Of a stretch of 36,558 nucleotides of DNA, positions 89 through 35,071 are shown in pieces. Made by a program: the position numbers and the translations under genes. The stretch is from an uncultured Mycoplasmatota bacterium (GTDB taxonomy: Bacteria > Bacillota_I > Bacilli_A > RF39 > UBA660): positions 1-36,558 of the forward strand of contig CANPIX010000010.1 of NCBI GenBank assembly GCA_947574215.1, read 5' to 3'. Positions within the stretch are counted from its first letter, which is position 1. The number at the start of each line of letters is the position of its first letter. A model generated the notes under the pieces. That model was not told the origin of the DNA and did not search any database. It saw only the letters and a program-made list of their open reading frames with translations.

Positions 89-237
89 CCTATCGTGAAA
101 AGTTATCTTTTACACAGAATTTTGGACACACTCTTGAAAAATTGAAAACAATGAATTTCATGTGCAAAAACATAGTACTTTCAATATCTCATTTGTGTAA
201 ACTGGTTTTTATAGATTTTCTCTTCTTTATTTTTTAT

Positions 238-831
238 TTATTCTTTTTTTCTAAAATAGTTTTCTATTATTGAAAAAACTTCTTCTTTTCCTTTTTTTGT
301 TATAGTCGAAAAAGGAATAAATCGATCTTGTTCCCCTAATTTTAAAGTATCTCGTATTAATTTATCTTGCTTCATACGATTACTTTTTGTTACTTTATCA
401 TATTTTGTAGCAACAACTGTTATATTTAAATCATAATATCTTAAAAAATTATACATAAGTATATCATCTTCTGTTGGCTTATGACGATAATCCACTAATA
501 AAAAAACATGTTTCAATTCCTTTCTGTTTTTTAAATATTCTTCAATCATCATTCCCATTTTTTTGCTTGTTCCTTTATCTACTTTTGCATAACCATATCC
601 AGGAACGTCTATTAGATAAAACGTTTCATTTATAAAATAAAAATTCAACGTTTGGGTTTTTCCAGGTTTTGAACTTGTTCTAGCGTAATTTTTGCGTCCA
701 ATTAGCGTATTAATAAAACTACTTTTTCCAACATTACTTCTGCCGACTAATAAAAATTCACACTTTTCATCTGTGGGATATTGGCTTTGCCTAACCGCAA
801 TATTTTTTAAATCTACCGTTTTGATTTCCAT
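238..831 (-). CDS. ysxC: Ribosome biogenesis GTP-binding protein YsxC/EngB
   Basis: This is a TRAFAC-class GTPase of the YihA/YsxC/EngB family, which helps assemble the large ribosomal subunit. The P-loop GRSNVGKSS, the G3 motif DVPGYGYA and the G4 motif TKYDK are all present, and the product of about 197 residues has the usual family size. I chose the internal ATG at 831 (MEIKTVDL...) because AGGTGA lies eight to nine bases upstream. The longer ORF-track start is a TTG inside the promoter. The gene is transcribed divergently from the FemAB-like gene and ends before a hairpin terminator. Family assignment is secure; the cellular role is family knowledge. Confidence 0.95.
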   Translation of the reverse strand: MEIKTVDLKNIAVRQSQYPTDEKCEFLLVGRSNVGKSSFINTLIGRKNYARTSSKPGKTQTLNFYFINETFYLIDVPGYGYAKVDKGTSKKMGMMIEEYLKNRKELKHVFLLVDYRHKPTEDDILMYNFLRYYDLNITVVATKYDKVTKSNRMKQDKLIRDTLKLGEQDRFIPFSTITKKGKEEVFSIIENYFRKKE

Positions 832-850
832 ATAAAAATCACCTAAAAAT

Positions 851-879
851 AGTTTACCCTTTTTCATTAGTATTTGCAA
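851..879 (-). promoter_or_regulatory. Putative promoter of ysxC
   Basis: On the minus strand TTGCAA (874-879) and TAAACT (851-856) are separated by exactly 17 bases, with the ysxC RBS just downstream. TTGCAA is its own reverse complement, and a second copy serves the divergent promoter seven bases away. Confidence 0.5.
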
Positions 880-886
880 TCTTTTC

Positions 887-915
887 TTGCAAACTACATT
901 ATTTATGTTTATAAT
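887..915 (+). promoter_or_regulatory. Promoter of the FemAB-like gene
   Basis: TTGCAA (887-892), 17 bases, then a perfect TATAAT (910-915), 25 bases before the ATG. The ORF track places the start of the downstream gene inside this promoter (a TTG at 887), which argues against that start. Confidence 0.7.
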
Positions 916-940
916 AAAAAATCAACAGGAGGTTTTTTTC

Positions 941-2200
941 ATGCGCATTAGAAATTTAAACATTCATGAGTTTGAAACATTTGTATCAAAGAATGATTTA
1001 GGAAACTATTATCAGACTTATGAATACGCTTGTCTTATGAAAGAAAATGGGTACGATTATGAATTTATTGGTTTAGTAAACGAATACGATACTGTGCTAG
1101 GTGCCTCTTTAATACTAATTAAAAAATTAACAAAACATTTAAAATATGGCTACGCACCAAAAGGTTTTGTCCTTGACTATTTTAATAAAGAATTAGTAAA
1201 AGAATTCACAAATCGCGTTATCTCCTATTACCAAAAAAAGTTGACATTTATAAAAATAAATCCGGAAATAGCTATCTCTGAAATTAATGCCAAAACAAAA
1301 GAAAAAATATACAATCAAAATATGGAAATTAAAAACATTTTATTAGATTTAGGATATGAAAAACTAAAAGACAATTTGTATTTCGAATCTCAAATTCCAA
1401 AATACAATGGAGTCGTTCATCTAAGAAATTTTTCTATAGAAAACCTTGAAAAAAACACAAGAAACAAAATTAAAAGGGGAAACAGCAAAGGATTATTTTT
1501 CGAAATATCAGATTATAGAGGAATTGATATTTTGTATAACTTTATCAAAAGAAAGAAAAGTAAAAACGCTTTGTATTACAAAAAATATTATCGAACCTTT
1601 AAAAATACTAATAATGTTGATGTGGTTTTAGTCGGTATTGATACAAATGATTTTTTAATACAATCTAAAAATAGTTATGAAAAAGAATTGGAACACAATT
1701 CACTACTAGCAAAATGTTTAACAAAAGAACAAAACGAAAAAAATATAAACAAAAAAATGAATTCAGATCGTACTCTTTTATCTTATAAAAACGATATTTT
1801 GAATGCACAAACAATAGCAAAAATTGGACAAAGAATATATATTGCTGGAGCTTTAGTCATAAAGTATAAAAACAGAATTAGCATTGCAATTAGTGGGTAT
1901 GATATCAAATACAAACGATTTAATCCTAATTATTACTTACATTATCAAATATTTAATTATTATAAAAAATATTTTGAATTTGCGGATATAAATGGGCTAA
2001 CTGGAGATTTTAGTTCAGAAAATCCCTACAAAGGATTAAATACTTTTAAATTAGGATTTAAGCCTAAAATATATGAGTTTATTGGTGAATACGATTTGAT
2101 TCTAAATCATTCTACATACAAAAGGCTTTTAAAAAATGGAAAATTAGCAAAAGTATTTAATAAAAACAATATAAAGAAAAAAAGAAATACCAATTCTTAA
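941..2200 (+). CDS. FemAB/MurM-family peptidoglycan interpeptide-bridge aminoacyltransferase
   Basis: The protein of about 419 residues matches the Fem family, tRNA-dependent transferases that add amino acids to the lysine side chain of lipid II. The N-terminal half has the Fem-type start (ETFVSKNDLGNYYQTYEYA) and a basic helix (NTRNKIKRGNSKGL). The C-terminal half has the second acyltransferase-fold signature, with YYLHYQ, the DINGLTGDF region and FKLGFKP followed by IGEYDL. The lysine-rich stretch between about residues 215 and 295 may be the helical arm. AGGAGG lies ten bases before the ATG at 941. A terminator follows, so it is probably monocistronic. It implies a peptidoglycan wall with a cross-bridge. 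Which amino acid it adds cannot be read from the sequence. Confidence 0.85.
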   Translation: MRIRNLNIHEFETFVSKNDLGNYYQTYEYACLMKENGYDYEFIGLVNEYDTVLGASLILIKKLTKHLKYGYAPKGFVLDYFNKELVKEFTNRVISYYQKKLTFIKINPEIAISEINAKTKEKIYNQNMEIKNILLDLGYEKLKDNLYFESQIPKYNGVVHLRNFSIENLEKNTRNKIKRGNSKGLFFEISDYRGIDILYNFIKRKKSKNALYYKKYYRTFKNTNNVDVVLVGIDTNDFLIQSKNSYEKELEHNSLLAKCLTKEQNEKNINKKMNSDRTLLSYKNDILNAQTIAKIGQRIYIAGALVIKYKNRISIAISGYDIKYKRFNPNYYLHYQIFNYYKKYFEFADINGLTGDFSSENPYKGLNTFKLGFKPKIYEFIGEYDLILNHSTYKRLLKNGKLAKVFNKNNIKKKRNTNS

Positions 2201-2220
2201 AAGTTGAAATAATAAAGTAA

Positions 2221-2256
2221 AAGTGGAACACAAAAAAATGCGTTCTACTTTTTTTG
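2221..2256 (+). terminator. Terminator after the FemAB-like gene
   Basis: AGTGGAACaCA and TGcGTTCTACT pair, with one mismatch and one G-U, around an A-rich loop and lead into seven T. Confidence 0.75.
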
Positions 2257-2562
2257 ATATATTTTAAATAAGGAATTGCTATTAGGTCCTAAGGTAAAAA
2301 AAATATAATAATTTAAATTAGTAAAAGATCATGTAAATCAACATAAGTGCATTAGAAATCACAAATCGAAAAAATATGCCTAGAAAAGTATAATTATTAG
2401 AAATAGCTGAAACAAACGATATTTTGAATAATTATGAAATAAATAGAAATGGAAAGATTTCCTCTATTACACAATTTTTTACATTCTCTAAAATTTTTAA
2501 AAATTATTTTTTCACGCTTTTTAATAGCAAGATTTCATTAGAAATATTCAATCAATTATAAG
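2257..2562 (+). other. Gene-free stretch with a possible decayed ORF
   Basis: No start-containing ORF is supported. On the plus strand 2394-2561 is open for 55 codons without a plausible start (it begins LLEIAETNDILNNYEIN) and follows an in-frame stop; it could be the tail of a degraded gene, but I recognise no family. There is no clear terminator for the HAD gene that ends at 2563. Confidence 0.2.
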
Positions 2563-3273
2563 TTAATTTAAAGTTTCTATTAATTCTGCAACCGTATTAC
2601 AAAGTTTATTTGTTGATTTATAAACAACTTCTTCAGAATTTTTCATGCCATAACCATTATATTTTAAAATCATTTCTACATCATTTGCTCCATCACCAAT
2701 AGGGTAAACATCATTATCAGATATATTTTCCATTTTTACTATTTTTTCAATAGCCTTTCCTTTATCTGTTTTTACAGAAATAATTTCAACTAAGTAATCT
2801 TTTTGTGTTGTTATAACATAAGATTTAACTGTTTCTTTCCAATTTTCATTTATAGTTTCAGATAAAGCTCTAGAAGTTTTTTCATCTTTCATTTCTAACA
2901 TAATTTTGGTAAGTTCATCTGATACATCTTCTATATCTTTTTTCATAATATCAAAAAGAATTATGCGTTCTAGACCTTCTCTAGATTCTACTGCCTTTAA
3001 TATCTGAATACCAATATTTTTTGGAATGAAACAAGCGTCAATAACTTTTTCATTTTTATCCAAAATAACTCCTCCATGATTTACAATTAAATAATCAAAA
3101 GGAATAGGATAAAAATCAAGTTTTCTTTTTAAGTCTAAATAACTTCTTCCTGTAGCAATTACAAACAAATTATCATTATCTCTAAATTTTTTAATTGCTT
3201 CAATATTTTTTATTATATCTTTTTCACTTGTATCTAAAGTTCCATCATAATCACTAAAAATAATCTTATTCAT
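2563..3273 (-). CDS. HAD-superfamily phosphatase, Cof/YcsE-like
   Basis: This is a haloacid dehalogenase-fold hydrolase of about 236 residues. Motif I DYDGTLDT is at the N-terminus, a motif II-type threonine is in FVIATGRS, and motif III/IV is GDGANDVEM. The cap between them is of the Cof (type IIB) kind, whose members dephosphorylate sugar phosphates or flavin-related compounds; the substrate cannot be deduced. I prefer the ATG at 3273: AGGAA is nine bases upstream, whereas for the ORF-track GTG at 3282 it would be directly adjacent. The gene stands alone between two gene-poor gaps. Confidence 0.85.
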   Translation of the reverse strand: MNKIIFSDYDGTLDTSEKDIIKNIEAIKKFRDNDNLFVIATGRSYLDLKRKLDFYPIPFDYLIVNHGGVILDKNEKVIDACFIPKNIGIQILKAVESREGLERIILFDIMKKDIEDVSDELTKIMLEMKDEKTSRALSETINENWKETVKSYVITTQKDYLVEIISVKTDKGKAIEKIVKMENISDNDVYPIGDGANDVEMILKYNGYGMKNSEEVVYKSTNKLCNTVAELIETLN

Positions 3274-3282
3274 TGAATTCAC

Positions 3283-3684
3283 TTCCTATTCTATTGCTTT
3301 TGCTTAATAATTCCATTTTATTTTACTAATTCATTTCCCTCATTTATTATAGTTATAATTCTGATTATTAAATCTATAATATTATTTAAGCAACAAATTT
3401 ATACAATTCGAAATTGCATCATAAACGCTAATCTTTGAGCGGGTATTAATGTTAAGAAATAACCTAAAATATTTCTTTCTGTAGAAGTTTTCAAATTAAA
3501 TTTTTGTATCTATCCGTTATACATGTTATTATTTCAAGGAACAAATCCATTAACTCGAAGCAAAAAAAAGAAAAAGGTTTTCAAAAAGTTGTGTAAAAGG
3601 TAATTTTACCTTACGTAAAGAAGCATCAAAAAAGATGGTTCTTTTTAAATTTATTATAGCAATTAATAAAGTGCTGATATTTTC
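3283..3684. other. Gene-poor gap of about 400 bases
   Basis: No supported gene. The strongest structure is AAAGAAGCATC, A6, GATGGTTCTTTTT at about 3618-3648, a stem with one mismatch that is T-rich on the plus strand side and only weakly so on the minus side; it may end the serine hydrolase transcript. A second small inverted repeat, GGTAATTTTACC, is just before it. On the minus strand around 3395-3500 there are short peptide-like stretches (such as TERNILGYFLTLIPAQR) ending in stops, suggestive of a decayed gene but not identifiable. Confidence 0.3.
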
Positions 3685-4680
3685 TTATTTTTCATAAATC
3701 TCTGCATGACATAAATTTTGTCGGCTGTCATAAAAGGATTGATGAAGTTCACGTACTCTTTTATGTATTTCTTGTACAATTTCTTTATATCCACTATTTT
3801 CATGTAATGTTAATATAGAAATCGCGTAAGGTTTTTCTTCCAAACTTAATCCAATATCATGATAATTGTCTCCATAACTACCATACTTATGATAGATTTT
3901 AATTGTGTCTGTATTAAAAGCATTTCGCTCACTATTATCCATAATATTTTTTAAAAATGGACCATATTTTTCATTTTCCTTTATAATTCGGTAAGCCTCT
4001 TTAAGATATATATTAGTGTCTTCTGCTGTCTGACTACCAAAATTATCTCCACCCGTTAGAATAACTTTGGCCCCTAAACTTTCTCCATAGGACTTTAATT
4101 TACTAAAACCAATATAATCAATCAACATCATATGAGCAGAATTATCACTCACAGAAATAGCATAAGTAATCAAATTTCGAAGAGACACTTTGTCACCATA
4201 TTTGTGAGTTGCAAGACCACTACTAAAAGCTTTTTTATACTTTTCTGTATATGTTATCGTTTCCGTATCTAAATTTACATTTCCTATTATTGCTTCATTA
4301 ATTAAATAAAGAGCATCCACTAATTTTATTAAACTAGCTCCATAATAAATAGTAGTAGGCTTATAACTATAAGAAAATCCCGTTGTTAAATCTTCATAAA
4401 AAACCGAAACTTCATAGTGATTTTTCTTTATATATTCATTAATCCCATTTCTTATAGAATTTAAGTTATCATTTATATCTGTTTCATTAAATTTGCGATT
4501 TAAACAAGCATTATACTCTCTTTCTTGTTCTTTTTGTTCCTCTTTTTGATTCTTAGGAAATCCCGTTTTATAATCATCTCGTTTTGAAAAATTAAAAAAA
4601 TAGGAAAAGATAAATAGAAAAAAGAAAACAGTTAAGAGAAGTTTAATAAAACGTTTCTTTTTTATTTTACGTTTAGCCAT
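3685..4680 (-). CDS. Membrane-anchored class A beta-lactamase-like serine hydrolase
   Basis: A 331-residue protein: a lysine-rich start, one membrane segment (about 12-30), a charged linker, then a penicillin-binding-fold domain from about residue 60. The SxxK motif is SLIK (S116-K119), the SDN loop is S178-N180, and the third motif is KYG (K255-G257) where beta-lactamases usually have KTG. I see no evident omega-loop Glu166 motif. The family (beta-lactamase2 type) includes true beta-lactamases and serine hydrolases of unknown substrate, so drug resistance should not be assumed. Two cysteines only, C59 and C324, bracket the outer domain and could form a disulfide. AGGTGA precedes the ATG. An extended -10 (TGTTATTAT) lies between it and the tuf terminator. 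Confidence 0.8.
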   Translation of the reverse strand: MAKRKIKKKRFIKLLLTVFFFLFIFSYFFNFSKRDDYKTGFPKNQKEEQKEQEREYNACLNRKFNETDINDNLNSIRNGINEYIKKNHYEVSVFYEDLTTGFSYSYKPTTIYYGASLIKLVDALYLINEAIIGNVNLDTETITYTEKYKKAFSSGLATHKYGDKVSLRNLITYAISVSDNSAHMMLIDYIGFSKLKSYGESLGAKVILTGGDNFGSQTAEDTNIYLKEAYRIIKENEKYGPFLKNIMDNSERNAFNTDTIKIYHKYGSYGDNYHDIGLSLEEKPYAISILTLHENSGYKEIVQEIHKRVRELHQSFYDSRQNLCHAEIYEK

Positions 4681-27930: not shown

Positions 27931-28494
27931 TTGAAAAAAATATTAATTGATTTAGATGATACAATTTTAGTAGATTGTTATTTAGAAATAGTAAATAAAT
28001 ATTTAAATAGTAATTATTCTTATAACGATATTAAAGGCTATTGGGTTGATGATATAATTCCTAAAGAAAAACAAGAAGAATATTTAGACTTTTTTTATAA
28101 TCATATTGATGTATATGAATATGGACATGTACAAAAAAATGCTATAAGAGTAATAGAACAATTAAACCAGTATTATGATGTATTAATTTGTAGTGCGTAC
28201 ATTGATCATCGAGATTTAAACAATTGTTCAAAAATTCTAACGTGCAAACACAAATGGTTAATAAAAAATCTTTCGTTTATAAAACCAGAAAATTTTATTT
28301 TTACAAATAGAAAAGACGTAATCCCTACAGATATTAAAATTGATGATAAATTAGAAAATTTAAAAACTTGTACTACCAAACTTTTAATCACCGCTTATCA
28401 CAATAAAAATATAAAAGAAGAAGATTTAAAAAAAGAAAATATTATACGAGTAAACGATTGGGACGAAATTGCGGAAATATTGCTTAATCACTAA
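27931..28494 (+). CDS. HAD-family 5'(3')-deoxyribonucleotidase-like protein
   Basis: A 187-residue HAD protein. Motif I is LIDLDDTILVD, with both aspartates; motif II lies around LICSAYID; the acidic motif III/IV is IKIDDKLENL. The short all-helical cap fits the NT5C type family, which removes phosphate from (deoxy)nucleotides, though the substrate is not provable. The start is the TTG at 27931 with AGGTGA five bases upstream; the ORF-track GTG lies within that RBS. Its stop runs 11 bases past the end of the convergent sortase gene. Confidence 0.75.
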   Translation: MKKILIDLDDTILVDCYLEIVNKYLNSNYSYNDIKGYWVDDIIPKEKQEEYLDFFYNHIDVYEYGHVQKNAIRVIEQLNQYYDVLICSAYIDHRDLNNCSKILTCKHKWLIKNLSFIKPENFIFTNRKDVIPTDIKIDDKLENLKTCTTKLLITAYHNKNIKEEDLKKENIIRVNDWDEIAEILLNH

Positions 28495-29035
28495 TCAATT
28501 TAAAAACATAAACATTTTGAAGTTTTTCATTTTTTCTATCACAAGTAATCAACGTTAAATTTGTTTCATTTCTTCTTTTGGATATTTCTATGGTACCATT
28601 TTTTAAAACGTTATACATAGTAATTAATTTATAATTATACTTTTTTTCATTATAATATAAATACGCAATATCATTTACTTTTAACTTATCTAAATTTTTA
28701 AAAAATGATATTTTACTATTTCCACTGTGCGATGCAAGAATTAAATTACTGTTTTTATTATCTGGCATCAATGAAGTTTCAATAACTTCAATATTTTTAT
28801 CCACATGATTATTTTTAGAACCAAATTTATAAAAGCCTCGTTTTAATTTTATTTTGGGAATTTCTAATACCGCAATAAAATTTTCTTCCTTTTTTTCAAA
28901 ATTTGAAACAATAAAATTTTCAACTTTTTGTATGTGCTTTTTTTCAACAGTCTTATGAATAAAAAAAGAAATAACAATAAACTGGATTCCTAGTATAAAA
29001 ATTAGTAATCCTATTTTTTTAAATTTTTTTACCAT
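28484..29035 (-). CDS. Sortase paired with the thioester adhesin
   Basis: A 183-residue membrane-anchored sortase: N-terminal helix (8-27), then the beta-barrel with IAVLEIPKIKLKRGFY, the catalytic His103 (LILASHSGN) and Cys165 (LTLITCDR). The conserved Arg normally found eight or so residues after the Cys is not at its usual place: the strand reads EKLQNVYVF, with Q173 there, and the only nearby Arg is R167, two after the Cys. The gene starts 17 bases inside the end of the adhesin gene and is translationally coupled to it, so the adhesin VPNTG signal is its most likely substrate. Its class cannot be settled by eye. Confidence 0.85.
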   Translation of the reverse strand: MVKKFKKIGLLIFILGIQFIVISFFIHKTVEKKHIQKVENFIVSNFEKKEENFIAVLEIPKIKLKRGFYKFGSKNNHVDKNIEVIETSLMPDNKNSNLILASHSGNSKISFFKNLDKLKVNDIAYLYYNEKKYNYKLITMYNVLKNGTIEISKRRNETNLTLITCDRKNEKLQNVYVFKLISD

Positions 29036-31094
29036 GTTCTACTAGACCTATACCAACAATCAAAAAAAAGAGTGGAAATATAAAATTCAATTTGAAAGCA
29101 AATTTACCCGTGTTTGGCACTTTCACAATTTTTTCATTTTCTAAAGATATTGGCACGACTTGTTTATCTTCGGTTATTGAAAAATAGATTCGCTCTTTAA
29201 ATAAATGATAATCATTTAATGCTTTTTTTTCTAATATATAGTACTTTCCATAAGGTAACTCTTTAATAACAATTTGACCGTTTTCATCTGTAGGACCACT
29301 AAAAATCAGTTCATCCTTTTCATTATATACTTCTATTAAAACATTTTTTAAGAGTTTTCCCGTCGCTAAATCCGTTTTATGAAATTCCAAGGTCCCTCTA
29401 AAAGGATGATTTATCAAATTCATATTTGTTTGTTTCTCCGTATTCTTGTCGACTACAAAAACAATGTCATCTAATAATCGATAGCCAAGTTTCCCTTTAA
29501 CTTGCCTAATAATATATTCTCCATAAGGAAGTTCAATTTCAGAATAACCATTTTCATTTGCATATACCCTAGTTATCATTTTCAAATTTTTTTTGTCATA
29601 TATTTCAAAAACGGCTTCTTTTTCAGGTAAAACTGAATTTAAATACCAAAAGTTTTTATTTATTATCAATTTGGTTTTGTAAACCTCATCGTATACTGTT
29701 AGGTAAACTAAAGAATCAGCATTTTCTTTGGTAATCGAAAAAAAATATTTTGTTTGGTCCAACTTATAACCAACAGGCGCTTTCATTTCCTGTAAATAAT
29801 ATTCTCCTAATAATAAATTCTTTTTTGATAAAGATTTACAATTCTTATCAATAATCAGTTGATCCACCAACTTATCTTCTTTCGTATAAATTCCATAAAC
29901 CGCACCATTTAAATAGGCTGTCCCACTATTTGAATTACAACTTTTCGTATCTGTATCGTATTTTTTTATTTCCACTTGTCCTAAATATATTTTATCATAA
30001 ACTATTATTTCTTTTGTTAAAACCTCCTTTGTAATCGAAAAATAATAAACGTTTGGATCGAGTTCATAATTTAAACCTGGAATTTCTTCTTTGAGATAAT
30101 AATTTCCAAGTTCTAAATTCTCTATAGAAGCGCTACAATCTTCTCCAATTAAAAGATCACTAACCCATGTATGATCCATTTTATACAATTTATAAACACT
30201 TCCTTTCAACGATCCATTTTCTTGAGCTTGACATATTTGACTGTCAGCATCGTATTTGAATAATTTTAATTTACCACTAATCACACTAAAATTAATTTCT
30301 AATTTTTGAGGATCCAAATTCCCCGCCACAAGAACATTTTGTCCATTATTAGAAGTATAAATAACAAGTTCTTCATCATAACTATTGGCTCTTTTTTCTA
30401 AAAAAATCTTTCCCGATTTATTAAAAGTTGGTGTAACAATAAGTTCTTTATTTTGAACTTGATATATACAATTTTCACAATTTTTAACTTCAAATCCATT
30501 TAATTTTCCAAAATTATAAGAAGTATTAAAAGGAATTACAGCAGAAAACGTTTTAAAATCTGGTTGTTTTAAATAAGAATCCACATATTCTTTTATCTCT
30601 TTCATATGTTCTTGAATCTCTTTAGGCGTTTGGATAATATATTTTTGAGGATTTTCTGGATGATAACCACTAGTAAATTCTAAACTCCTTCCTAGTTCTT
30701 TCCAAATAAGTGTTTGAGTGGCTACAATCCAATCGTCACCTTTATGTCTTCCTTTGTAATCGTAGCCAAAATAAGCATATAAAGCAATTTTTTCTAACTT
30801 ATTTTTACTTATATTGGCCTTACTTCCCAACTCACTTAATGGCAAATCATAATACCCTTTGTATGAAAGAGAAGATAATGAAACTCCTGGTTCGATACAA
30901 TAAGCTGTTGTTTTATCACTTGTTCTAATAAAATGCTCAAAATTTGCATGTTTTCCTTTCGAGTCTACATAACTATAATTTTTTATAAATATAGCTTCAA
31001 ATTGATCCGTAGTTGTTTTAGCTAAAACAACCCGAGGTACAAACAATACTAACAAAATTGCTACAATGTATATATATTTTATTTTAACGTGCAT
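29019..31094 (-). CDS. Cell-wall anchored thioester-domain adhesin with SpaA-like repeats
   Basis: A 691-residue secreted protein: signal peptide (about 1-25), a thioester domain whose Cys66 (AYCIEPGV) and Gln127 (VATQTLIW) match the Cys-Gln pair that forms a covalent bond with host proteins in known members, an intermediate segment with a CxxC (206-209), then four SpaA/Cna-B-like domains (about 274-369, 372-471, 474-563, 567-655), a VPNTG sorting signal (659-663), a hydrophobic segment and a basic tail. Lys280, 378, 480 and 573 and Glu336, 436 and 622 fit internal isopeptide chemistry; domain 3 has Gln531 where Glu is expected. Domains 1 and 2 share a cysteine pair at equivalent places. AAGGAG precedes the ATG. 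It overlaps its sortase. Confidence 0.9.
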   Translation of the reverse strand: MHVKIKYIYIVAILLVLFVPRVVLAKTTTDQFEAIFIKNYSYVDSKGKHANFEHFIRTSDKTTAYCIEPGVSLSSLSYKGYYDLPLSELGSKANISKNKLEKIALYAYFGYDYKGRHKGDDWIVATQTLIWKELGRSLEFTSGYHPENPQKYIIQTPKEIQEHMKEIKEYVDSYLKQPDFKTFSAVIPFNTSYNFGKLNGFEVKNCENCIYQVQNKELIVTPTFNKSGKIFLEKRANSYDEELVIYTSNNGQNVLVAGNLDPQKLEINFSVISGKLKLFKYDADSQICQAQENGSLKGSVYKLYKMDHTWVSDLLIGEDCSASIENLELGNYYLKEEIPGLNYELDPNVYYFSITKEVLTKEIIVYDKIYLGQVEIKKYDTDTKSCNSNSGTAYLNGAVYGIYTKEDKLVDQLIIDKNCKSLSKKNLLLGEYYLQEMKAPVGYKLDQTKYFFSITKENADSLVYLTVYDEVYKTKLIINKNFWYLNSVLPEKEAVFEIYDKKNLKMITRVYANENGYSEIELPYGEYIIRQVKGKLGYRLLDDIVFVVDKNTEKQTNMNLINHPFRGTLEFHKTDLATGKLLKNVLIEVYNEKDELIFSGPTDENGQIVIKELPYGKYYILEKKALNDYHLFKERIYFSITEDKQVVPISLENEKIVKVPNTGKFAFKLNFIFPLFFLIVGIGLVEHGKKI

Positions 31095-31841: not shown

Positions 31842-31932
31842 ACAAACCACTCTCTGTATTAGTAGTCTTAACGAATTTATAGCATTTATTCTTACATATT
31901 ATAACAATTCAAGTATAGTTATAATATATTTT

Positions 31933-33702
31933 TTATATTGCTATCTTATTTGATTTATCCTTAGAAGCTGCAATAATTTTCTTGAAATTTTCAATTCTAG
32001 TGAATAGTAGTGTACAAAGTTTATGAATACGTCGATCCGTCATTTTGGTAATATCTTGAAACTTATGAAGCATTGTTTCAAATTCTTCTACAACGCCATC
32101 TAATTTTGTTAAATCAAATCTTGTGATATTCTCTATGTTTTTAAGTAGCGAATCAAAATCATTTACTGAATAGAAAAATCTTGCTTTTCCATTAATAATA
32201 ATTTCTTCCTCATTATAATCCACAATGTTAAGAGCCTGTCCATTATCAAAAATTGGAGCCACACAAATCCATTTTAAAGTATTTACATCTCTAATAATAC
32301 CGAAATTATTTAAATGTCTATCTTCATTTAAAATAAGATAATCCAAAATAAACATATTTTCAATAGATTCGCGAGCTTTTGAAATACCATGTTCTTTTAG
32401 TACTTCTATATATTCTTCATAAATATTTTCCTTCTTACAATAGCAATGTACAATTTGATAAGCTGAAACATATTCTGTGTTAGAATCAATAAAACATGGG
32501 CATTTAGAAACAATTTGACCTTTTACGACATCGATTGTATATTTAACATGATCAAAACACAAGCGTTCACAAATTAAGGAAGCTAAAGCCTCATTAAAGG
32601 GTTGCATAACTTCTCCTTTAAATCCCCCTTTTAATAAAAATCTTTTTCCTGACTCAAGAATCCATGTTTTCTTTAGTCTTCCATCAGTTGTATTATTAGG
32701 AGAAAATAAACTTACATCTTCATTTCTAACATTTGAGAAAGTTATATCCATCAGACTTGAATCTTTAAAATCATGTTCAAAAAAATTAATATCTTCATAT
32801 TTTATTTTACTATCATAAGGTTTAATCCAATATTGATCCGATAATGAAAGACCAAAAGCTTTATTTAAAAGTTCCTCAGAGACATTAACATTTAATTTAT
32901 GTAATAATATATCCAAATCGTCACGCCAAGAAGGAATTCCCCTTCCGCAAAACCAATCAGACAAAGAACGTTTAAAATCCGATTCAGAAGAAGCATTATA
33001 ATAAGCGTGTTTTACTATTAATGGAGCATACTCAATATTTTTTATTTCGTATATTTCACTAAATCCATGCAAAATATCATCATAATCTGCTATTAATACC
33101 TCCGTATTTTTATTCATCAAAATGCAATTAGGCTTTAATTGTAAAGCATCTCTAAAAATAAATTCTATTTCCGAATTATCATAAACTGCCTTATCCCAAT
33201 CTTTGCCATAATATTGCAAAAGATTTAACATCAATTCAATCTTTATCCATTCCCCATCGTTTATTAATTTAAGCAAACCTGCTATACGATTGACCATATA
33301 TTTATTTAAAGTCTTCATATCTTCTTGTGATAACTGTCCATTGGCATGCATATCTTCAACTGGACCATTGCGAAAAAAATAATGAGTAAAAGCCTTTGAA
33401 ATCCAATCAATATTTTCAGATTTAAATAAACGTGATTTAGCTCCGCTATTCAAACTCTCAAATAAAGTACTATTTTCTTCTTTGTATCTTTTAAATATGT
33501 AATTAGAAGAAAACGGAGCGATATTCCATTTTTTTCTTTTATATCGAACCTGATTTTTAGAAACTTTATATAGATCAGCAATCAAACTATCCGAAATTCT
33601 TTCTTCTACAAATAGTTTTTCCAATTGGATTTTTGTAATGCTATTCCAGTCCATTTGCATACCTTCATTTTTCATTTTTACTAGTTCTTCATAAGAATAC
33701 AT
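31933..33702 (-). CDS. HipA-like kinase with an N-terminal HTH and extra helical domain
   Basis: The 589-residue protein ends in a HipA-type Ser/Thr kinase domain (about 335-570). It shows FLLKGG (K358), the catalytic loop LNEDRHLNNFG (D461, N466) and the metal-binding APIFDNG (D486), all intact. Before it is SLSDQYWIKP...EDINFF (285-308), a segment I associate with Firmicute HipA-like proteins. The N-terminal third is different: an apparent helix-turn-helix (about 25-60, SDSLIADLYKVSKNQVRYKR) and a helical region with HYFFRNGPVEDMHANG (about 107-122). No HipB-like gene or other partner lies next to it. The upstream AAAGTGATG is a weak RBS. Kinase activity is likely from the motifs; toxin or defence function is speculation. 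Confidence 0.75.
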   Translation of the reverse strand: MYSYEELVKMKNEGMQMDWNSITKIQLEKLFVEERISDSLIADLYKVSKNQVRYKRKKWNIAPFSSNYIFKRYKEENSTLFESLNSGAKSRLFKSENIDWISKAFTHYFFRNGPVEDMHANGQLSQEDMKTLNKYMVNRIAGLLKLINDGEWIKIELMLNLLQYYGKDWDKAVYDNSEIEFIFRDALQLKPNCILMNKNTEVLIADYDDILHGFSEIYEIKNIEYAPLIVKHAYYNASSESDFKRSLSDWFCGRGIPSWRDDLDILLHKLNVNVSEELLNKAFGLSLSDQYWIKPYDSKIKYEDINFFEHDFKDSSLMDITFSNVRNEDVSLFSPNNTTDGRLKKTWILESGKRFLLKGGFKGEVMQPFNEALASLICERLCFDHVKYTIDVVKGQIVSKCPCFIDSNTEYVSAYQIVHCYCKKENIYEEYIEVLKEHGISKARESIENMFILDYLILNEDRHLNNFGIIRDVNTLKWICVAPIFDNGQALNIVDYNEEEIIINGKARFFYSVNDFDSLLKNIENITRFDLTKLDGVVEEFETMLHKFQDITKMTDRRIHKLCTLLFTRIENFKKIIAASKDKSNKIAI

Positions 33703-33810
33703 ACTATCATCACTTTCTAATTACAAATTTAAACTTTAAGATATTTTATCAAAATGAAAAATGAAAATCCATATTTACTTCAAAAATATTGAACGTATAA
33801 AAAAGAAGTA

Positions 33811-34835
33811 CTAAAGATTTGCTATTAATTTTTTTATCATATTTAATTCTTTTTCTAATTTTACATCTGTTCCTATTTCATAAGATAGTATTACTCTTAT
33901 ATAAAAATCTATTGCGGGAGATAAATATACAGCTTCTTCTTTAACTCTAAACATTGATATGTCTGTTCCTGCTTTTTCATAAGGCTTTGTTGATTTAAAA
34001 GATTTTCTTTTAATCCTCTTAAATCTCCTTTATAAGAATTGTATCTTCTATAATTGATTTTATTTTGTTTCACATATCCTTTTTTTCTCATTATTTCTAA
34101 TACTTTATTTTTTCCTATTTTTATTCCTTGATTCTTAAGTTCTATATATATTCTTTGATAACCAATTCTTTTTTTATGCTTTTCTAAATATAAATAATCT
34201 ATTTCTTTTTCTATATCTTCGTACTTGTTGACTTCATTTTTTATTGCATTTAATTGATAATAATACACCGACAGTGGAATATCTGTCATTTCTAGAAGAA
34301 CTTTTAACTCATATTTTGTCCTTAGCTCGTTAACAACTTTTACTTTTTCCTTTGTTGTTAGTTCTTCTAGTTTTTTTGCTAAGGACTGCGATTTTTTTAA
34401 GAAATCAATCTCTGCTTTCAATCTTTCATTTTCTTCCATCAATTTTTTATCTATCATCTTCTTATATCGTTCATCTTCATTTAGGTAATTTTTTCTAGGA
34501 TAAGTATCTTGTATTGATTGTTCTCCTTCTTTATCATACTTTTTTACCCAATCTAATGCCGTTTTATAATTTATTAATCCCATATCCAAACTTACTTGTC
34601 TTATTGATTCTCCATTTTTTATTCTGCTTATAGTTAATAGTTTTGTTGCTCTTCTATAAGTTCTTCTTTCTCTATTTAAAAATGGTTCTTCTCCATATCT
34701 TTTATATAAATTAACTAGATATTTTAAATCATCTATGTTTTTTGTATTGTGTAATTCACATATGTGTGATAATGACTTTCCTTCTACTACATGTTCTTTA
34801 CACATTTGAAGTTTTTCTTCTATCGTTTTTTTCAT
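33811..34835 (-). pseudogene. Decayed IS3-family (IS150-like) transposase
   Basis: The reading frame begins with OrfA-type repeated HTHs (EKLQMCKEHVVEGKSLSHIC; SIRQVSLDMGLINYKTALDW), then a leucine-zipper-like stretch, then the HTH_21 part of OrfB (KRIGYQRIYIELKNQGIKIGKNKVLEIMRKKGY). After LKENLLNQ the frame is wrong and stops at 33909. In the next frame the integrase domain resumes (KAGTDISMFRVKEEAVYLSPAIDFYIR) but stops at 33811, losing the rest of the DDE core with its second Asp and Glu. So it is both frameshifted and truncated. The ATG at 34835 has GGAAGGAG upstream; TATAAT with a TCGAAA -35 precedes it. OrfA and OrfB seem fused in frame, not joined by programmed frameshift. Confidence 0.85.
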
Positions 34836-34920
34836 TAAAAAAATGACTCCTTCCAAGTTTTAGAATATATTTTTATTATACATTCTTTTTCCAACTTTTC
34901 GAAGCCATTTCATCCACATC

Positions 34921-34994
34921 TGGCAGGGGATGAGAGAATCGAACTCCCAACTAAAGTTTTGGAGACTCCTATTATACCATTTAACTAATCCCCT
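34921..34994 (-). tRNA. tRNA-Trp (anticodon CCA)
   Basis: The minus strand folds as a full cloverleaf: acceptor AGGGGAT/ATCCCCT, D arm GTTA/TAAT, anticodon stem GGAGT/ACTTT with loop CTCCAAA (anticodon CCA), a four-base variable loop, T arm GGGAG/CTCTC with TTCGATT loop, then G and an encoded CCA. It reads UGG only. No terminator follows; the IS remnant begins within 60-90 bases of its 3' end. Confidence 0.95.
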
Positions 34995-35010
34995 ACAAAT
35001 TTACAATATT

Positions 35011-35040
35011 ATTATAGCATAAGTATGAACAAATAAGCAA
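35011..35040 (-). promoter_or_regulatory. Promoter of tRNA-Trp
   Basis: TTGCTT (35035-35040), 18 bases, TATAAT (35011-35016) preceded by TGC, an extended -10, 17 bases before the tRNA. Confidence 0.65.
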
Positions 35041-35071
35041 ATACTTTCATATACTATTCTAGGTGATTATA

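Follow-up and report, generated by a model that had tools for sequence, protein, structure and literature searches.

The window, the whole stretch of 36,558 nucleotides analysed here, contains a gene encoding an HTH, a helical region and a HipA-like kinase in one chain, and the question that it raises is whether this protein represents a previously undescribed system, possibly of defence, as the initial annotation proposed, or a variant of a known arrangement.

Organization of the fusion gene

The gene shows an ATG start and no internal stops, and its host is a gut-type Bacilli genome known as one MAG. The encoded protein is divided into an N-terminal module (N-module) and a kinase half (Table 1), and the presence of HTH, helical region and intact kinase in a single chain was borne out by the ORF, the motifs, the AF2 helices and the family alignments. 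Most of the solo kinases start with MKCILMNKN..., and in the alignment the fusion protein reads ...ALQLK-PN-CILMNKN..., while the solo N-module protein of locus L106 terminates in ...AIGLK at the position matching the junction. According to these alignments, the fusion is made of two whole gene families joined head-to-tail, end-to-start and in frame, and the 50-66% identity of its halves to independent homologues excludes, at the level of sequence, a chance resemblance. The kinase half deviates at three of the 116 sites otherwise invariant in 22 relatives (other relatives deviate at zero to six), and the N-module deviates at none of 29 otherwise invariant sites; with so few departures, neither half is decaying.

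Table 1. Features of the fusion gene and of its surroundings, with positions in the window.
Feature	Residues	Position	Strand	Evidence
Fusion gene (589 aa): N-module (HTH + helical domain) and HipA/CtkA-type kinase		31933..33702	-	Single open frame; independent homologues for both halves
N-module	1-190	33133..33702	-	Solo proteins of ~190-214 aa in other genomes
HTH part	about 22-62	33517..33639	-	AF2 helices 24-33, 38-45 and 49-58, pLDDT >90; segment recurs before or inside NOV_C proteins
Helical domain with FFRNGPVEDMHANG...LNKYMVN signature	about 95-189	33136..33420	-	No Pfam family or PDB fold match
Fusion junction	K190 / P191-N192	33127..33135	-	Alignments: natural C-terminus of the N-module (...AIGLK, then stop, in L106) meets residue 3 of the solo kinase (MKCILMNKN...)
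Kinase half	191-589	31936..33132	-	Solo kinases of ~390-400 aa in other genomes
Kinase N-terminal subdomain, three strands then helices	~191-343	32674..33132	-	AF2 strands 193-197, 200-208 and 213-220
Catalytic loop LNEDRHLNNFG (D461, N466)	458-468	32299..32331	-	37 relatives all share D461 and N466
Metal-binding APIFDNG (D486)	482-488	32239..32259	-	37 relatives all share D486 and G488
IS3-type transposase remnant, OrfA and start of OrfB		33909..34856	-	HTH_28 and HTH_21 present; rve domain/integrase core missing
tRNA-Trp(CCA), edge of the variable cargo slot		34921..34994	-	ARAGORN, Rfam; adjoins cwlJ in sister genomes too

The kinase half

The kinase half matches the Pfam family HipA_C with an E-value of 3.4e-6, slightly under the gathering score, and shows a match called weak (1.3e-15) to the PADLOC model PDC-M03A, the PDC-M03 system being formed by the PDC-M03A kinase and its partner gene(s). 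The match to CtkA in the PDB is weak from the single sequence and reaches 7.8e-22 with the family profile, with HipT ranking after it (~4e-7). Foldseek with the AF2 model of the fusion protein (mean pLDDT 76) gave CtkA with an E-value of ~1e-7 (8e-8) and a TM of up to 0.66 on the target, HipA with ~1e-6, and also HipT. The motifs LNEDRHLNNFG and APIFDNG are intact, as had been noted, and K358 of RFLLKGG, the ATP-binding Lys, is also invariant in the alignment of the 37 relatives. By its conserved K358, D461, N466 and D486 and its HipA_C-like fold, the kinase half belongs to the HipA/CtkA superfamily, and it very probably has kinase activity. For its N-terminal subdomain, from the model we only infer a resemblance to the HipA N-subdomain-1/HipS arrangement, and neither hhalign to E. 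coli HipA nor Pfam Couple_hipA gave support to a HipS-like identity of residues 191-343.

The N-module

The N-module is all-helical in the AF2 model. Its HTH segment also recurs in unrelated proteins, which supports the HTH call: the HTH half is found in proteins ending in NOV_C (DUF3883-like), at L103:3272-4192 and L104:3347-5005 (by Pfam) and at L105:2870-3976 (by eye), and the first of them adjoins a PDC-S73 defence candidate. The second part belongs to a helical family lacking a Pfam entry, whose best-conserved stretch is the FFRNGPVEDMHANG region, and shows weak matches to a solo chromosomal protein of ~105 aa and to a phage protein. Searches of the N-module against Pfam, PHROGs and PADLOC gave sub-threshold or partial matches only, NCBIfam contains no family describing it, and neither profile search of the PDB nor Foldseek gave anything significant; the clearest viral fold match spans the HTH only. 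A known non-defence family matching the N-terminal regions was looked for in particular, and none was found.

Solo homologues of the N-module, 50-60% identical, are present in six genomes (G090, G241, G205, G067, G292 and G364), and proteins of viral contigs are 43-51% identical; in the wider phylum, phages and plasmids the N-module is absent or represented by its helical half alone. In the viral contig L137 (IMGVR_UViG_3300006217_000328, 92-4537), a gene encoding a protein 48% identical to the N-module of the fusion is located ~35 bp downstream of a GajA-GajB pair, identified by PADLOC (2e-190 and 1e-254, respectively), and is possibly an accessory gene of this Gabija system. Another viral homologue (L143) adjoins serine recombinase and terminase-type phage genes, a third one (L146), containing only the helical half, sits by phage structural genes, and one BRO/antirepressor-type candidate gene is among the contextual hints at defence. 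These contexts are suggestive of an N-module family used by mobile elements or in defence, the Gabija case being single. Apart from them, chromosomal proteins of ~105 aa (L038:3992-4294 and similar ones in L039-L041) are weakly related to the helical half, and a relative of this size is conserved beside an MBL-fold hydrolase-like gene in many genomes of the family.

Distribution in related genomes

The genomes searched were 291 of the same family, 22 of the same genus and 385 of the order, with a separate search of 386 family genomes for the N-module; these sets overlap and contain about 520 distinct genomes in total. A second protein spanning both halves was not found in any of these about 520 related genomes, and on this survey the fusion is lineage-specific rather than a conserved system. 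Its two source families are both present within the genus, the solo kinase in G309 and the solo N-module in G241 and G292. Solo kinases 54-66% identical to the kinase half occur in the same taxonomic family with a patchy distribution, in about one in five of the related genomes surveyed. The kinase was seen in none of the six genomes encoding the N-module as a solo protein, a number too small for significance, and co-occurrence therefore adds no support for a functional link.

The absence of a HipB gene beside the fusion, pointed out in the initial annotation, extends to its relatives: no HipB-type operon partner is found near the window gene or in any of 56 distinct kinases of its own family, two of which show an XRE gene on the opposite strand within 300 bp. 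In nine of the 56 (L004, L014, L015, L018, L019, L024, L066, L068 and L069) a gene encoding a large serine recombinase ends 51-57 bp upstream of the kinase gene, with the domains PF07508 and PF00239 verified at one locus; thus, part of the kinase family travels paired with a recombinase. More distant relatives, on plasmids and in phage and viral contigs among others, have different N-terminal or upstream parts: HTH_17 is fused to the kinase in Collinsella (L121), and XRE HTH_3 in Vescimonas (L123) and also, judged from the sequence, in the viral contig L133; a phage contig (L125) shows a helical extension of ~100 aa; a HicB/RHH gene overlaps upstream of the kinase gene in Selenomonas (L120), and an RHH_1 gene is upstream of it in a Clostridiaceae plasmid (L126). 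In the kinase tree, whose deep branches are long and poorly placed, the window kinase falls among the solo kinases, and the types paired with DNA-binding parts are distant and scattered, so that DNA-binding partners must have been gained several times.

Genomic context

The same-strand neighbours of the fusion gene are a gene encoding a PF06541 membrane protein, downstream, and the IS3-type transposase remnant, upstream, followed by tRNA-Trp. The remnant and the tRNA gene had been recognized from the outset as a mobile-looking setting, and comparison with sister species, where Fic or XRE genes are found at this site, agrees with it. The sister genomes keep the order CmpB-like gene, variable region, tRNA-Trp and cwlJ, and the variable region, which corresponds to positions 31850-35063 of the window and was compared in loci L171-L177, differs within the genus: it is nearly empty in G303 (~0.95 kb); G241 has HTH genes there, G309 a Fic gene together with an HTH_26 gene, and both G136 and G305 have XRE genes. 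The slot filled by the fusion gene and the IS3-type remnant is thus one that accepts toxin-type and regulatory cargo. In G012, a cwlJ homologue is followed 87 bp downstream by a solo kinase gene (L023). The tRNA-Trp gene was considered as a pointer to TrpS, the HipT target, and this was rejected, as this old boundary of the slot is present in the sister genomes as well.

Comparison with known Hip-type systems

The closest layout is that of HipH/YjjJ, clade X of the Hip tree, a monocistronic Hip kinase whose N-terminal HTH of ~100 aa is a proposed antitoxin acting in cis (PMC8262856). The likeness (one gene, an N-terminal HTH and no adjacent HipB) is one of layout only: the N-module of the fusion is unrelated and larger, with an HTH and a helical domain of ~100 aa, its kinase is nearer to CtkA/HipT by profile and fold, and the present fusion is lineage-specific. 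The YjjJ model gave weak matches in five of the 37 relatives (best E-value 0.004), and the window protein gives no NCBIfam match and no hhalign match to E. coli HipH, so that these searches do not place its kinase in the YjjJ clade. Since HTH-Hip single chains were already known in this form (PMC8262856) and the three-part layout is in no other genome, to call the locus a previously undescribed system was an overstatement.

CtkA (PDB 3akj), a Helicobacter protein tied to a type IV secretion system (PMC5536186), is the nearest solved structure and shares the kinase core and the DRHxxN and PIFD motifs, but it has ~325 aa and contains neither an HTH nor the kinase N-terminal subdomain of the fusion, for which there is no sign of secretion. 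HipA of hipBA has the catalytic residues in common with the kinase half and matches most of it by fold, whereas the fusion has no adjacent hipB and its sequence does not align significantly with that of E. coli HipA; HipT of hipBST is similar by profile (4e-7) and fold, but no hipB or hipS is beside the fusion gene. HipA-like kinases without HipB are also found in the HipA/DUF3037 pairs (DS-6/HipAD and PDC-M66), which are proven anti-phage systems in which the DUF3037 partner neutralises the toxicity (PMC13092281, PMC12548924); the fusion differs from them in having neither a DUF3037 nor a DUF1829 partner beside it. With Gabija it shares only the N-module, through the single L137 locus, and no GajA or GajB gene is beside the window gene. 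The fusion is thus a genuine though modest new version of the known theme of HTH and Hip kinase, with a possible link to defence.

Proposed function and alternative explanations

HipA and HipT phosphorylate tRNA synthetases and thereby arrest growth. In this lineage only, a solo accessory Ser/Thr kinase has been joined to the end of an entire DNA-binding module, which in relatives is encoded by an accessory gene of its own. The kinase would phosphorylate a housekeeping target, probably of translation, so that growth is slowed or stopped, and the HTH and helical module would bind in cis its own promoter or other DNA, autoregulating and/or restraining the kinase, until stress or an incoming element alters the DNA-bound state of the module and ends the restraint. 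To this reading, in which a growth-arresting kinase is autoregulated or restrained by the DNA-binding module of its own chain, we give about even weight. Of its parts, growth arrest by the kinase is probable, regulation of the kinase in cis by the N-module may equally be right or wrong, and a role against phages or other mobile elements is doubtful. The matches to CtkA, HipT and HipA, the invariant catalytic residues, the undecayed halves, the repeated pairings with DNA-binding parts, the HipH/YjjJ precedent and the cargo slot speak for it, and restraint in cis is favoured because of this precedent, the HipA/DUF3037 pairs and the anatomy of the fusion. Against it stand the lack of co-occurrence of kinase and N-module, the single MAG and the 56 solo relatives without an operon HTH, since such relatives indicate that the kinase needs no such module and may not be toxic.

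An alternative is a non-toxic regulatory Ser/Thr kinase that modifies a cellular protein and is tethered by the N-module to DNA or to a transcription site, a reading in line with the persistence of solo kinases without antitoxin in small genomes (~1.2 Mb); the characterised members of the superfamily acting inside bacteria, HipA, HipT and YjjJ, nevertheless inhibit growth (PMC8262856), and we regard it as unlikely. The kinase might otherwise be cargo or an addiction toxin of small mobile elements, maintained selfishly, and the fusion a chance by-product of insertion in the tRNA-Trp slot with the N-module as a passenger. The nine kinases that follow a serine recombinase, the patchy presence and the varied positions fit with such a history, but both halves have kept their conserved residues, they are joined exactly end to start with the frame kept, and addiction would need an antitoxin partner, of which none is seen near the fusion gene or in the operons of the 56 relatives, all of which makes this explanation improbable. 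The union of two separate genes of the MAG by an assembly artefact is very improbable: the fusion is known from one genome only, but the frame is kept, the natural terminus of one family meets residue 3 of the other, and the join lies inside the contig with consistent synteny on both sides.

The proposal of a defence gene in the initial annotation survives as hints only: one N-module adjacent to Gabija, one BRO/antirepressor-type gene and the weak PDC-M03A similarity. A single-chain phage-defence protein, in which the N-module would sense infection through foreign DNA or a phage product and the kinase would abort it, has on its side the N-module gene downstream of GajA-GajB in L137, the HTH half in the NOV_C protein beside the PDC-S73 candidate, the PDC-M03A match, the variable cargo slot and the use of HipA-like kinases as effectors in HipA/DUF3037 systems (DS-6/HipAD, PMC13092281; Retron-Sda1 locus, PMC12548924). 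However, the Gabija association is single, the neighbours of other N-modules are housekeeping or prophage genes, solo kinases occur dispersed between housekeeping genes outside defence islands, and the fusion is not conserved, so that we consider this reading rather unlikely. Its most far-reaching form seems decidedly unlikely: a DNA-binding or infection-sensing module, a separate subunit in Gabija-like systems, would have been joined to a HipA-type kinase as a one-gene abortive-infection protein, and the FRNGPVEDMH helical domain would represent a new domain for sensing or regulation common to phages, Gabija operons and kinases.

The fusion adds to a recurrent pattern in which Hip-type kinases acquire, fused or adjacent, DNA-binding partners that are not related to one another (XRE, excisionase-type, RHH and here an HTH and helical module not yet named), and the natural fusion provides a ready construct for asking if such modules restrain the kinase in cis. 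Two families are worth naming: the solo HipA/CtkA-like kinases that follow serine recombinase genes in uncultured Bacilli, and the FRNGPVEDMH helical module, which occurs beside Gabija.

Other features of the window

Outside the cargo slot, a sortase-like gene adjoins a gene encoding a large surface protein with repeated pilin/adhesin-like domains, recognized by eye (28484-31094, minus strand), and a ribosomal protein L10 leader RNA (RF00557; 11315-11445, minus strand) precedes the L10/L12 genes.
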